In this document: piece after piece, positions 4,611 through 11,892 of the stretch
How the letters are laid out: each line of letters begins with the position of its first letter
How positions within the stretch are numbered: position 1 is the stretch's first letter
From: Rhizobium leguminosarum bv. trifolii WSM1325
GTDB taxonomy: Bacteria > Pseudomonadota > Alphaproteobacteria > Rhizobiales > Rhizobiaceae
Assembly (NCBI GenBank): GCA_000023185.1
Contig: CP001624.1
Location: 124,001-188,000, forward strand
Direction: 5' to 3'
Length of the DNA: 64,000 nucleotides
The notes under the pieces: generated by a model
What the model saw: the letters and a program-made list of their open reading frames with translations, nothing else
Databases searched by the model: none
Told to the model about the DNA's origin: nothing
Program-made: the position numbers and the translations under genes

Positions 4611-5234
4611 TCAGGCGAAAGAAGCGATTGCCGCCTGGCAGGCCTTGGCGAAATGACCGCAGCAGCCGGCAGCGCCCATGGCCTGGCGGCTGACGCGCGC
4701 GCCTTCGAGCAGCAGCGTCAACGTATCGGCAAGAAGCTGGGGTTCGCGCGCGCCGGCCGCCGAACAGAGCGCAGCCAGGCGATCACGCTGTTCGGCCTTG
4801 TGCCGCTCGATCATTTCGTGGGCGGGATGGCCCTCGCCCTTCAGCTCGATGGCGGCATTGGCGAGATCGCAGCCGGCGGGCTCACCGTTCAGACATTGCG
4901 CCCGCAGTTCCACCCAGGCATCCAGCTGGGCGCGCGGATTGTCGGGATAGGCCGCTTCCAGATCTCGCCAGATGGTACCCGCCTTTTCGGAGGCGCGGCG
5001 CAGCGTTTCGCAGACGAGTTCGTCCTTCGAGCCGAAATGCCGGTAGAGCGTCATCTTGTTGGTCAGAGCCGCGTCGGCAATGGCATCGACGCCGATGCCG
5101 CGAATGCCGCGCTCGCGGAAAAGCTCCGAGGCGGTCGAGACGATACGCTCCCGCGGCGGGATGCGATCTTCTAAAACGGCTGCGGAGATTTCATTCGAAG
5201 TTTCTGATTTTTTTGAGGACGTAGTCCTTGACAT
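4611..5234 (-). CDS. TetR/AcrR family transcriptional regulator
   Basis: A 207-residue repressor-type regulator. The TetR helix-turn-helix is at about residues 26-73 (RIVSTASELFRERGIRGIG, then MTLYRHFGSKDEL), followed by a helical ligand domain with several cysteines (CLNGEPAGCD; AAGCCGHF). The ATG at 5234 is chosen; the codon before it is TTG. It is divergent from a small gene at 5362, and the gap contains three palindromes that are probable operators, so it likely represses itself and its neighbour. The ligand is unknown; the SDR gene further on is another possible target. Confidence 0.88.
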   Translation of the reverse strand: MSRTTSSKKSETSNEISAAVLEDRIPPRERIVSTASELFRERGIRGIGVDAIADAALTNKMTLYRHFGSKDELVCETLRRASEKAGTIWRDLEAAYPDNPRAQLDAWVELRAQCLNGEPAGCDLANAAIELKGEGHPAHEMIERHKAEQRDRLAALCSAAGAREPQLLADTLTLLLEGARVSRQAMGAAGCCGHFAKACQAAIASFA

Positions 5235-5241
5235 CAATGTG

Positions 5242-5278
5242 ACCGATCGGTAACAAATGCATTGTTACTTACCGGTAA
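5242..5278. promoter_or_regulatory. cluster of palindromic TetR operator candidates
   Basis: Three back-to-back symmetric sites lie right at the start of the TetR gene: ACCGATCGGT (5242-5251), GTAACAA-N5-TTGTTAC (5250-5268) and TTACCGGTAA (5269-5278). The GGTAAC/GTTACC half-site recurs. Position and symmetry are typical for TetR autoregulation and control of the divergent gene. Confidence 0.65.
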
Positions 5279-8898: not shown

Positions 8899-8914
8899 CC
8901 ATAGTTATGCTATA
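8899..8914. promoter_or_regulatory. candidate IclR operator before the amidohydrolase gene
   Basis: CCATAGTTATGCTATA, containing ATAG-N5-CTAT, matches the CCATAGT-ATG motif upstream of the IclR gene at 6738. The AT-rich bases that follow (8911-8935) are the likely promoter core for the minus-strand gene. Confidence 0.5.
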
Positions 8915-9052
8915 TAAATCTTTATAATAGAATAAAGCTGCGGATGTCGCTGTCAAGAAAAATGACGCGGCCGACACCGCTGAGAAAATGGAAGCGGCGC
9001 GCTCCTTGCGACGCGCGCCTCTCTCGAAGATCCGATAAATTCGCGTTTGTGT

Positions 9053-9922
9053 TCAATCCCCAAGGATCGAATAGTCGAGCCTTTCCAGGTGCTCCGGATC
9101 AGCGATGGCGTCGATCGCGGCGATCCTGCCATCGGCGATCGTCAGCGCCACGACGACGCGGAGCTGGCCCTGGATCTCCACGACGAACCCAAGCTCACCG
9201 CCGACGATGGCGATTTCGGCTGCCTGCGCCCGACCCTTGAAGGCTTCGGCCACGTCAGTTGCGCCGCGCATTTCGCCAATGGTGCCGAAGCGGGCGGCCG
9301 TCGCATCCGGCCGGAAGACGACGTCGGGGGCAAGCACCGCGATCAATCCCTCCAGATCGCCGTTGCGCGAGGCTGTCAGAAAGGCCTCGGCGATCGTCCG
9401 CTTATGGCCGAAATCGACATCTGGCGCTTCGTCCACCCCCTGCACCCGGCGGCGGGCGCGGCTTGCAAGCTGGCGGGTAGCGGCGGACGAACGGCCGATG
9501 ATCGGCGCGATCTCGTCGAAGGGCAGATCGAACATGTCGTGAAGCACGAAGGCGACACGTTCGGCGGGCGCCAGCGTCTGCAGCACGACGAGCAGCGCCA
9601 GACCGACCGAATCGGCGAAGGCGGCTTCGCGCTCGGGATCGTTCGCCGGATCGGCGATCCCGCCATGGTCGGGCACCTCCAGCGGCTCCTCGCGCCGGGT
9701 CTTGCGGGCGCGCAGCATGTCGAGGCAGATGCGCGCCACCACCGTCGTCAGCCAGCCGCCGAGATTGCCGACCCCTGTCGTATCGGTGCGGCTAAGCCGC
9801 AGCCAGGCCTCCTGAACGGCATCCTCCGCCTCGCTGCGCGAGCCGAGCATGCGAAAGGCTGCGGCCCTCAGATGCGCTCTGTTCGCCTCGAATTCTTCAG
9901 TCAGCCATTTTTTCTCGTCCAT
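9053..9922 (-). CDS. ECF sigma factor with fused SnoaL-like domain (ECF41-like)
   Basis: A 289-residue protein. The sigma-70 region 2 is near residues 13-80 (RMLGSRSEAEDAVQEAWLRL) and region 4 near 115-165 (LAPAERVAFVLHDMFDLPFDEIA). A ~110-residue SnoaL/NTF2-like domain follows, the arrangement that replaces an anti-sigma factor in ECF41 proteins. The group's DGGGK motif appears as DATAARFG, so it is degenerate. A perfect ECF41-type promoter precedes this gene and another precedes the divergent AhpD-like gene, the usual ECF41 target, which supports autoregulation and assignment to this group. Confidence 0.9.
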   Translation of the reverse strand: MDEKKWLTEEFEANRAHLRAAAFRMLGSRSEAEDAVQEAWLRLSRTDTTGVGNLGGWLTTVVARICLDMLRARKTRREEPLEVPDHGGIADPANDPEREAAFADSVGLALLVVLQTLAPAERVAFVLHDMFDLPFDEIAPIIGRSSAATRQLASRARRRVQGVDEAPDVDFGHKRTIAEAFLTASRNGDLEGLIAVLAPDVVFRPDATAARFGTIGEMRGATDVAEAFKGRAQAAEIAIVGGELGFVVEIQGQLRVVVALTIADGRIAAIDAIADPEHLERLDYSILGD

Positions 9923-9923
9923 T

Positions 9924-9950
9924 TGTCACATTCCTCCGCTGCGTTCCGTC
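9924..9950 (+). promoter_or_regulatory. ECF41-type promoter for the AhpD-like gene
   Basis: TGTCACA (9924-9930), a 16-base spacer, then CGTC (9947-9950), reading toward the gene at 10030. This matches the -35/-10 signature remembered for ECF41 sigma factors exactly. Confidence 0.8.
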
Positions 9951-9958
9951 AAGGCCAT

Positions 9959-9985
9959 GACGCATAAAACCCGGCCGATGTGACA
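9959..9985 (-). promoter_or_regulatory. ECF41-type promoter for the sigma factor gene
   Basis: On the minus strand TGTCACA (9985-9979), a 16-base spacer, then CGTC (9962-9959), reading toward the sigma gene at 9922. Its -10 lies only 8 bases from the -10 of the plus-strand promoter, so the two face each other. Confidence 0.8.
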
Positions 9986-10029
9986 GCGCCGGCGGATCGT
10001 CGAACACGAAACGTATAAGGAGACATATC

Positions 10030-10506
10030 ATGCAGGAAAAATTGGTCATGCAGGAGAGAATGGGAAATCCCGCCCTCGTCCTTCCCGCAGCCATGCAGGC
10101 GCTCAATGCTCTCAGCAAGGTGCCGACCGAAACCGGCCTTTCGCCAAAGCTGCTCGAACTCGTCAATCTGCGCGCCAGCCAGATCAACGGCTGCAGCGTC
10201 TGCATCGATGGTCATTGGCGCATTGCCCGCAAACACGGCGAGACCGATGAGCGGCTCTTTGCTGTCGCTGGCTGGCGCGACGCCCCCTATTATAGCGATG
10301 CTGAACGCGCCGCGCTTGGGCTGGCGGAGGCGATCACCCGCCTTAGCGATCGGGCGGATCCGGTGCCGGATGATATCTGGGATGAGGCGACCCGGCATTA
10401 TGACGGAAAGAGCCTTGCGGCACTGGTCATCGCCATCGCCAACATCAATGTCTGGAACCGGCTGAACGTCGCCACCCGACAGGTCGCGGGGCAATGGAAG
10501 CCGTAA
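10030..10506 (+). CDS. carboxymuconolactone decarboxylase / AhpD-like protein
   Basis: A 158-residue protein of the AhpD-like carboxymuconolactone decarboxylase family. The redox and proton-relay motif CSVC with a following His (Cys55, Cys58, His62) is intact, as in alkylhydroperoxidase AhpD-type peroxidase-reductases. Family members reduce peroxides or disulfides; the physiological substrate is unknown. AAGGAG precedes the ATG. It is divergent from the ECF41-like sigma gene and has a matching promoter, so it is the likely principal target of that sigma factor. Confidence 0.9.
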   Translation: MQEKLVMQERMGNPALVLPAAMQALNALSKVPTETGLSPKLLELVNLRASQINGCSVCIDGHWRIARKHGETDERLFAVAGWRDAPYYSDAERAALGLAEAITRLSDRADPVPDDIWDEATRHYDGKSLAALVIAIANINVWNRLNVATRQVAGQWKP

Positions 10507-10513
10507 ACGGCGA

Positions 10514-10552
10514 GGTTGCCGGCAGCGCGTCACGCCTGCGCTGCCGGCAACC
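10514..10552. terminator. bidirectional hairpin between AhpD-like gene and rhaI
   Basis: A perfect 15-bp stem, GGTTGCCGGCAGCGC (10514-10528) with its complement at 10538-10552, and a 9-base loop. It lies between convergent genes. No U-tract follows. Confidence 0.65.
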
Positions 10553-10599
10553 ATCATCCCGCTCAGCATGGCTTCAGGCCATGCGAGACAATCGGTCGT

Positions 10600-11892
10600 T
10601 CAGATGATGCCGCCGCCGCCGGCAGCGGATGCCGGGCGCTCGGCCGCCACTTGTCTGCGATAACCGCTGGCGCGGTAGACGGCGATCGGGTCGATTGCGC
10701 CGCCGGCCCTGCGGCGGGCTTCGGCCAGAATCGGCTCGACATCGGCGCGATAGGCGCGCTTCAGCGTTTCCGACGCCATCAGCGCGTCGTTATCGTCCTG
10801 GTAGCCGGAGAGCGCCTTGCGGTCGACGAGCAGTGCCTGCGCATAGGCACGGCGGATTTCGTTGGCGCTGTTGATCAGGCTTTCGATCGGGTCGGTGACA
10901 TTGTGCGACTGGTCGATCATATGGGCCGGGTTGAAATCGTTGACGCCGCGCTGCTCGGCGTCGACCAGTTCGTTGAAGACGAGGAACAGCCGGTAGGGAT
11001 CGATCGCGCCGGCGTCGAGATCATCATCGCCATATTTGGAATCGTTGAAGTGGAAGCCGCCGAGCTTGCCGAACTGGATCAGCCGAGCGACGATCATCTC
11101 GATATTGGTATTCGGCGCGTGGTGGCCGAGATCGACGAGGCAATAGGCCTTGGGGCCGAGCGTCTGGGCGATCAGGTAGTTGCTGCCCCAATCCTGCACG
11201 ATGGTGGAATAGAAAGCCGGCTCGTACATCTTGTGCTCGGAAAACAGCTTCCAATCGTCGGGCAGCGCCTTGTAGATATCCGCCATCGAGGCAAGGTAAC
11301 GCTCGAAAGCCTTGGTGAAATGGCTCTGGCCGGGGAAGTTCGAGCCGTCGCCGATCCAGACCGTCAATGCCTTGGAGCCGAGCGCCTTGCCGATCTCGAT
11401 GCATTCGAGATTGTGCTCGACCGCTTGCGCCCGTGTTGCCGCATCGGTGTGGCTAAGCGAGCCGTATTTATAGGAATGGGCCTGGCCGGGCGCATCGGAA
11501 AATGTGTTCGAATTCATCGCATCGAAGCCGAGGCCGAGCGCGTTGCCCTTGGCCTTCAATTCGCTGGCATCCGCCTTGTCCCAGGGAATATGCAGCGAGA
11601 CGTTCGGGGTCGCCTGCGTCAGCTGATTGATGACGGCGCAATCGTCGAGTTTGTCGAAGATGCCGCGCGGCTCGCCGGTGCCGGGGAAACGCGCAAAACG
11701 CGTGCCGCCGGTGCCGACGCCCCAGGAGGGAACGGCAACGAAGAATTCCGCAACCTTGCGGGTGACCGCCTCGATATCGACGCCGCGACGGGCAAGCGTC
11801 GCGCCCAGTGCCTCGTAGTCGGCTTTCAGAGCGGTTGCCCGCTTGTCGTTGTCAGTCGCGACCAGATCTGGCGCAATCCTGGAATCTGTCAT
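10600..11892 (-). CDS. rhaI: L-rhamnose isomerase, rhizobial type
   Basis: A 430-residue metal-dependent TIM-barrel isomerase converting L-rhamnose to L-rhamnulose in the cytoplasm. Visible barrel motifs include VPSWGVGTGGTRF, LTVWIGDGSNFPGQ, LFSEHKMYEPAFYST (Glu and Lys at the metal site), CLVDLGHHAP and GGFHFNDSKYGDDD. The start has GGGAGGAA upstream. It is the second gene of the minus-strand rhaD-rhaI unit, next to the divergent uptake operon, matching the arrangement described for R. leguminosarum bv. trifolii. A 281-base gap holding an antisense small gene separates it from rhaD. The C terminus is Ala/Gly rich. Confidence 0.93.
   Translation of the reverse strand: MTDSRIAPDLVATDNDKRATALKADYEALGATLARRGVDIEAVTRKVAEFFVAVPSWGVGTGGTRFARFPGTGEPRGIFDKLDDCAVINQLTQATPNVSLHIPWDKADASELKAKGNALGLGFDAMNSNTFSDAPGQAHSYKYGSLSHTDAATRAQAVEHNLECIEIGKALGSKALTVWIGDGSNFPGQSHFTKAFERYLASMADIYKALPDDWKLFSEHKMYEPAFYSTIVQDWGSNYLIAQTLGPKAYCLVDLGHHAPNTNIEMIVARLIQFGKLGGFHFNDSKYGDDDLDAGAIDPYRLFLVFNELVDAEQRGVNDFNPAHMIDQSHNVTDPIESLINSANEIRRAYAQALLVDRKALSGYQDDNDALMASETLKRAYRADVEPILAEARRRAGGAIDPIAVYRASGYRRQVAAERPASAAGGGGII

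Follow-up and report, generated by a model that had tools for sequence, protein, structure and literature searches.

A 62-bp, nearly two-fold symmetric unit on plasmid pR132502 of Rhizobium leguminosarum bv. trifolii WSM1325 is probably a dedicated bidirectional ECF promoter, one that would admit a single polymerase at a time and co-induce a sigma gene and its target at a fixed ratio. The window, the whole stretch of DNA that was analysed, comprises 64,000 nucleotides (bases 124001-188000 of a 660,973-base contig). The unit lies at positions 9924-9985 of the window, between the gene for an ECF41-like sigma factor on the minus strand and an AhpD-like gene on the plus strand. The initial annotation had placed one exact TGTCACA-N16-CGTC site on each strand here, and the sequence confirmed both: one site was found at 9924-9950 on the plus strand (TGTCACATTCCTCCGCTGCGTTCCGTC) and the other at 9985-9959 on the minus strand (TGTCACATCGGCCGGGTTTTATGCGTC). 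The plus-strand promoter (-35 element TGTCACA at 9924-9930, -10 element CGTC at 9947-9950) is aimed at the AhpD-like gene at 10030-10506. The minus-strand promoter (-35 element TGTCACA at 9979-9985, -10 element CGTC in the minus-strand reading at 9959-9962) is aimed at the sigma gene, which runs from 9922 to 9053. The two promoters face each other, and the gap between CGTC and GACG spans 9951-9958 (8 bp, as had been reported). The orientations bear out the earlier assignment of these two genes as the opposed outputs, and the description of the sites as ECF41-type holds as well, in that both agree with the published ECF41 promoter consensus (PMC3426412). This geometry is established.

The sigma gene (9053-9922, annotated RLEG_RS27440) encodes a protein of 289 aa with a C-terminal SnoaL_2-like domain. 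Its likely Shine-Dalgarno sequence, GGAGGAA, was read at 9931-9937 on the minus strand. The -35 element of the AhpD-directed promoter falls between this Shine-Dalgarno sequence and the start codon (9922-9937), so that a single stretch doubles as promoter and ribosome-binding region. The presumed target, an AhpD-like carboxymuconolactone decarboxylase gene, has its annotated start at 10048; given a likely Shine-Dalgarno sequence (AAGGAG) read at 10017-10022 on the plus strand, a start at 10030 is favoured. That the sigma gene might have its own sigma-70 promoter was considered and rejected, as the single consensus match within 8900-10700 falls past the end of the gene.

The frequency of the motif was also assessed. 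When the spacer was left free between 14 and 18, 0.06 matches were expected in the window, and none of 100 shuffles contained two or more sites. Across the 7.42-Mb genome these two were the only exact sites, compared with three for a reversed control pattern; one-mismatch sites numbered 67, compared with 38 for the control. Given that the exact-site count is no higher than that of the reversed control, the significance of the pair derives from its position and its relatives rather than from its count. A chance origin of the pair was rejected on the basis of its face-to-face placement between a sigma gene and the presumed target, and of its recurrence in relatives. One further one-mismatch site (5218-5244) overlaps the 5' end of an ORF judged TetR-like by eye, and was regarded as a chance match.

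The window sigma factor resembles ECF41 in architecture, promoter and kind of neighbour. Pfam models Sigma70_r2 and Sigma70_r4_2 scored above their cut-offs, whereas SnoaL_2 reached 25.2 bits against a cut-off of 27, and the best solved relative is SigJ (5xe7, residues 9-278); the protein thus has the ECF41 arrangement of sigma regions 2 and 4 followed by an extension with a SnoaL_2/NTF2-like domain. TGTCACA-N16-CGTC stands exactly at both genes, as at ECF41 targets. The neighbourhood is likewise that of ECF41, with a divergent AhpD-like CMD gene and no anti-sigma gene among the annotated neighbours. In the account of Wecke et al. (2012, PMC3426412), neighbours in the ECF41 group are a carboxymuconolactone decarboxylase, oxidoreductase or epimerase, with no obvious anti-sigma gene. 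With respect to conserved motifs, the window sigma factor departs from the group. WLPEP, in the linker between sigma2 and sigma4, is absent from it; the motif was found in none of 65 sigma factors encoded beside gap-8 units, in one of three beside units with other gaps (L064), and in 14 of 17 more distant relatives. DGGG is a conserved motif of the ECF41 extension. It too is absent from the window sigma factor, and it was present in none of the 65 gap-8 sigma factors compared with all 17 of the more distant relatives. Among ten sigma factors from a sample of plasmids, WLPEP occurred in none and DGGG in one (L215). Where relatives have NPDKL, described as a conserved extension motif of the ECF41 group (PMC7730460), the window sigma factor aligns DPEHL. 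Two NCBIfam models also scored below their cut-offs (SigJ, 242.8 bits vs 271; SigX4, 206.6 vs 323.25). In view of the missing WLPEP and DGGG and of these scores, we call the protein ECF41-like, and its sequence places it in a branch separate from canonical ECF41. SnoaL-like tails are also described for ECF groups ECF56, ECF205, ECF294 and ECF295 (PMC7730460, PMC8999054).

To locate the likely start sites, the S. meliloti SMb20029-rpoE9 operon served as reference; its motif lies 9 nt upstream of a mapped start (PMC3616915). Consistent with this, PMC6180224 (Table 1) gives the S. meliloti promoter as far as the ninth base past CGTC, a G, although the bold type that marks the start is missing from the plain-text version. 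With a start 9 nt past the motif, a distance taken from a canonical ECF41 member while the window sigma factor belongs to a separate branch, and with a gap of 8, each +1 would coincide with the outermost base pair of the other promoter's -10 element (the first G of GACG). The predicted starts are therefore 9959 on the plus strand for the AhpD-like gene and 9950 on the minus strand for the sigma gene, each a G on the strand concerned.

Base statistics were then compared between facing units and promoters that do not face another. The non-facing set (n=52, non-redundant, chosen by pattern alone) was drawn from 45 of 53 rows (the eight left out were two sites of the window unit, one relative with a single side, and five identical or nearly identical entries) together with 11 promoters from sigma-first loci, among them the site of L036 directed at the sigma gene. 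In this set the pyrimidine-purine step peaked at positions 8/9 (69%, compared with a mean of 23% elsewhere), in support of the predicted starts; a start offset of 10 would agree less closely with this peak. Position 8 of the facing units was a pyrimidine in all 52 sigma-side halves and in about 98% of target-side halves. Moreover, the base after CGTC differed between the two sets: among facing units it was a purine 51 times in 52, among non-facing promoters 19 times in 52 (p 3e-12, kinship ignored). Because this base pairs with position 8 of the other promoter, the -1 pyrimidine, such a purine signature is expected from dual use of the DNA. The signature itself is established. The possibility that the opposing GACG is merely an initiation sequence was rejected, since it was present in none of the 52 non-facing promoters. 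At an offset of 9 or 10, the two RNAs should start back to back and diverge without overlap. The initial annotation had supposed 5' ends overlapping by a few bases; this does not agree with the predicted starts, since overlap would require initiation at most 4 nt past the -10 element.

From this geometry a mechanism can be proposed. Holoenzyme containing this sigma factor would bind the unit in either orientation, and in both orientations would melt a nearly identical segment, about 9948-9961. Each RNA would have as its first nucleotide the first base of the opposing -10 element: 9959 for the AhpD-directed transcript and 9950 for the sigma-directed one. The computed bubbles are 9948-9960 and 9949-9961 (for a start distance of 9 and a standard bubble size), so that on geometry the opposed elements would share one melted region, as in a bidirectional promoter. 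The computed footprints, for a standard size, are 9919-9978 and 9931-9990. Since each footprint covers most of the opposing promoter, simultaneous occupancy is implausible, and there would be room for a single polymerase at a time; on this arithmetic, the earlier claim that two polymerases cannot occupy both promoters appears sound. We infer that both directions fire, and that the window sigma factor drives both. Active sigma factor would then raise its own gene and the target together, in proportions fixed by the two half-promoters, and use of a common site would limit the rate of positive feedback and place a ceiling on autoactivation. Given that the same sigma factor is expected to serve both directions, mutual exclusion would share out initiation and alter its ceiling and noise, not its direction.

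The spacing of facing promoters was examined across bacteria by a pattern scan of one genome per species, in which two facing promoters were sought with gaps of 0-30 bp allowed. On each side TGTCAC and CGT had to be present, separated by exactly 17 bases, so that near-consensus facing elements were required; at least 118 pairs were obtained. As the scan selects facing pairs only, its counts describe the spacing of such pairs; it is silent on how often pairs are missing or otherwise arranged, and blind to back-to-back promoters. Gap and neighbour counts were made on all 118 pairs listed, whereas target tblastn searches, per-position information, unit-to-sigma distances and the tree were based on the first 80 of the at least 118. 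Among the matches listed, the gap was exactly 8 in 88 of 118 facing pairs, and in 87 of the 91 listed pairs with a sigma or AhpD-like gene at most 700 bp away. Conversely, 87 of the 88 listed gap-8 pairs had a sigma gene (82) or an AhpD-like gene within that distance, compared with four of the 30 listed pairs with other gaps (gaps 9, 9, 11 and 30). The 87 pairs were distributed over Actinomycetota (54, plus one Rhodococcus record filed under Cyanobacteriota), Pseudomonadota (22), Acidobacteriota (5), Myxococcota (2), Armatimonadota (1), Chloroflexota (1) and candidate division FCPU426 (1), seven phyla in total, with the last three represented by single metagenome-derived genomes. Recurrence in relatives is thus established: where halves of good strength face each other, the gap is nearly always 8. 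An order-wide pattern search found pairs in four of 397 genomes, with a gap of 8 in three and a gap of 0 in one (G369). Other spacings beside a sigma gene were a gap of 9 in an actinomycete (L064, whose sigma factor has WLPEP) and in a Chloroflexi genome (L099), and a gap of 11 at L041. An Eremiobacterota genome (L128) contained a gap-8 facing unit with neither a sigma nor an AhpD-like gene detected within 700 bp.

In relatives, consensus -35 and -10 elements 16 bp apart are kept in both halves. The sequence within the gap varied widely: 55 distinct central hexamers were found in 68 oriented units, and the central six positions carried less than 0.25 bits each (42 non-redundant units). A constant length combined with a scrambled central sequence points to selection on the gap. 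The estimated distance from unit to sigma start was -2 to +1 in 42 of 68 loci and mostly -24 to 68 in the rest; as it is tight in many loci, conservation of length may be shared in part by the flanks. In this distance survey target ORFs were picked mechanically, some in the wrong frame. Target families varied at gap 8. AhpD-like targets were recognized by tblastn and others by Pfam; ten other target proteins, which are chosen examples, comprised four glyoxalase-like, two NmrA/NAD-binding and two pyridoxamine phosphate oxidase-like proteins, one ABC ATPase and one without a Pfam match. The ABC transporter ATPase, the divergent target of a gap-8 unit (L115:2719-3669), is not a redox-type enzyme, and the target without a Pfam match belongs to L109.

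To escape the facing-pair bias of the pattern scan, loci were also sampled by sigma factor first. In the family sample, 26 of 151 genomes had a sigma match at E 1e-40 or better, at 30 places. All 13 places with close relatives (at least 59% identity) had a facing pair with a gap of 8, and their halves scored 10-11 of 11 on the sigma side and 9-11 of 11 on the target side. In the class sample, three of 385 genomes matched at E 1e-55: the window itself, L155 (gap 8, halves of 10 and 10 of 11) and L156, which has the AhpD-side promoter only. Among close alphaproteobacterial loci, a gap-8 pair was therefore found in 14 of 15, with the weaker half scoring 9-11 of 11. The 17 more distant places (37-42% identity) contained no facing pair. 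A site of 10-11 of 11 toward the sigma gene or a gene before it was present at 15 of the 17, and none was found at L028 and L032. One distant relative of the same family, the DGGG-bearing L036, is divergent from an AhpD-like gene; its two sites (scores of 11 and 10 of 11) stand back to back, and their -35 elements are 31 bp apart. An exact back-to-back pattern with at most 30 bp between the sites was found in none of the 151 family genomes, a pattern too strict to recover L036. Back-to-back promoters are another solution to the divergent layout, one that stands for the distant relatives; since L036 belongs to another sigma branch, it does not alter our assessment of the window unit.

Plasmids gave a different picture from the close relatives. 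A match was present in 161 plasmid records; from the 40 listed, 11 loci were taken (ten tested and the window's own). A facing pair was present in one of the ten tested loci (L224, a Rhizobium). Only or mainly one half was kept elsewhere: the target side in L220 and L218, and the sigma side in L215, L216, L221, L222 and L223, while L217 and L219 had neither half in the vicinity of the gene. Scores were only 9 of 11 at several of the half sites, and L215 had a weak second site at a gap of 29. Neighbours of the half-units included a divergent HAD hydrolase at L223 and a type III polyketide synthase at L221 and L222. With a facing pair in only one of ten plasmid loci, the sigma factor is evidently viable without the unit, which is not universal among these sigma factors, and the retention of single halves suggests that each is conserved for its own sake. 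In the tree, a long branch with support of 100 set the 17 distant sigma factors apart from the rest. The unit may thus have arisen once and changed later, and inheritance is likely; the tree was made by a quick method with a midpoint root, and requires at least four changes of the facing-8 label on starred branches.

Inheritance of this kind bears on a simpler explanation, namely ordinary divergent autoregulation by independent promoters packed tightly, in which the spacing is ancestral and without function. The 17 distant sigma factors on one side of a well-supported branch are compatible with one origin and later losses, halves can disappear singly, and the distant divergent relative L036 copes with back-to-back promoters. 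Against this, a gap of 8 was kept in 87 of the 91 listed gene-associated pairs although the central bases are near random; the gap was the same for AhpD-like, NmrA, PNPOx and glyoxalase targets; and the purine after CGTC is typical of facing units. We therefore regard functionless spacing as unlikely. It could also be supposed that only one half is a working promoter, and that the other is retained for another reason, for instance as an operator or a translation signal. The -35 element (TGTGACA) lying between the sigma-gene Shine-Dalgarno sequence and start codon would suit such a role, and five of ten plasmid loci retain only or mainly the sigma-side half. Relatives, however, preserve both halves with -35, -10 and 16-bp spacer, L156 and L220 retain only the AhpD-side half, and in B. 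licheniformis and R. sphaeroides AhpD-like genes have promoters shown to be targeted by ECF41 (PMC3426412), all of which makes a single working half very improbable.

The initial annotation had further proposed that direct competition between the promoters could produce a switch, so that a cell commits to either the sigma factor or the target enzyme. Overlap of the polymerase footprints is in keeping with mutual exclusion, and at E. coli bidirectional promoters strong activation in one direction can repress the other (PMC12825309). Both directions, however, are expected to require the same sigma factor, so that more sigma factor would lift both. All 400 random parameter sets of a mean-field model with linear sigma action, no cooperativity and no noise also gave a single steady state. 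The switch was accordingly set aside as very unlikely. With regard to co-induction at a fixed ratio from a dedicated bidirectional promoter, a broader proposal can be advanced tentatively, with slightly less confidence than would be needed to favour it: that an alternative sigma family has evolved a fixed two-way promoter, with one bubble, two directions, one polymerase at a time and each start nucleotide coinciding with the outermost pair of the opposing -10 element, and that it may have been kept base-pair-exact in at least seven phyla because it locks the ratio of sigma factor to target and limits runaway autoactivation.

A natural, strong-consensus, base-pair-exact two-way promoter would here join a presumed positive autoregulator to its presumed target, in an arrangement that recurs in seven phyla. 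It offers a system for studying the effect of promoter mutual exclusion on feedback loops, output ratios and noise, in which the half-units of relatives provide natural controls. The unit would also lend itself to synthetic circuits as a compact part working in two directions.

The founding paper on bidirectional promoters is reportedly that of Warman, Grainger and colleagues from 2021. As described for such promoters in E. coli (PMC12825309), the present unit has near-symmetric DNA on which polymerase would act either way, one at a time, and divergent RNAs whose starts (here predicted) lie a fixed short distance apart. The E. coli promoters have shared or adjacent -10 elements and start distances of commonly 18, 10 or 23 bp; basal activity of the five tested was reported as too low for competition, which emerged once activity was raised (PMC12825309). 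In the unit described here, by contrast, both halves carry the full consensus of one alternative sigma factor, the predicted starts are 9 bp apart, and the genes are those of a sigma factor and its presumed target. Resemblance to divergent ECF41 loci is also close. These combine a C-terminally extended sigma factor with an AhpD-like or similar divergent neighbour and often have the motif before each of the two genes (36 and 41 of 55; Wecke et al. 2012, PMC3426412, Table 4); unlike that group, the window sigma factor lacks WLPEP. Sections 20, 21, 25 and 30 of PMC3426412 make no mention of a facing geometry or a fixed gap. Likewise, titles and abstract openings of the literature searched, a body that leaves most subscription papers outside it, held no description of the facing gap-8 geometry. 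The S. meliloti RpoE9 operon SMb20029-rpoE9 shares the promoter motif and an AhpD-like target (PMC6180224, PMC3616915), but it is a same-direction operon with one start mapped upstream, and its sigma factor is classed as ECF41 by the authors. Taken together, bidirectional promoters are already known, as are divergent ECF41 loci that carry the motif on both sides, and what appears to be new is the facing layout with its fixed 8-bp gap.
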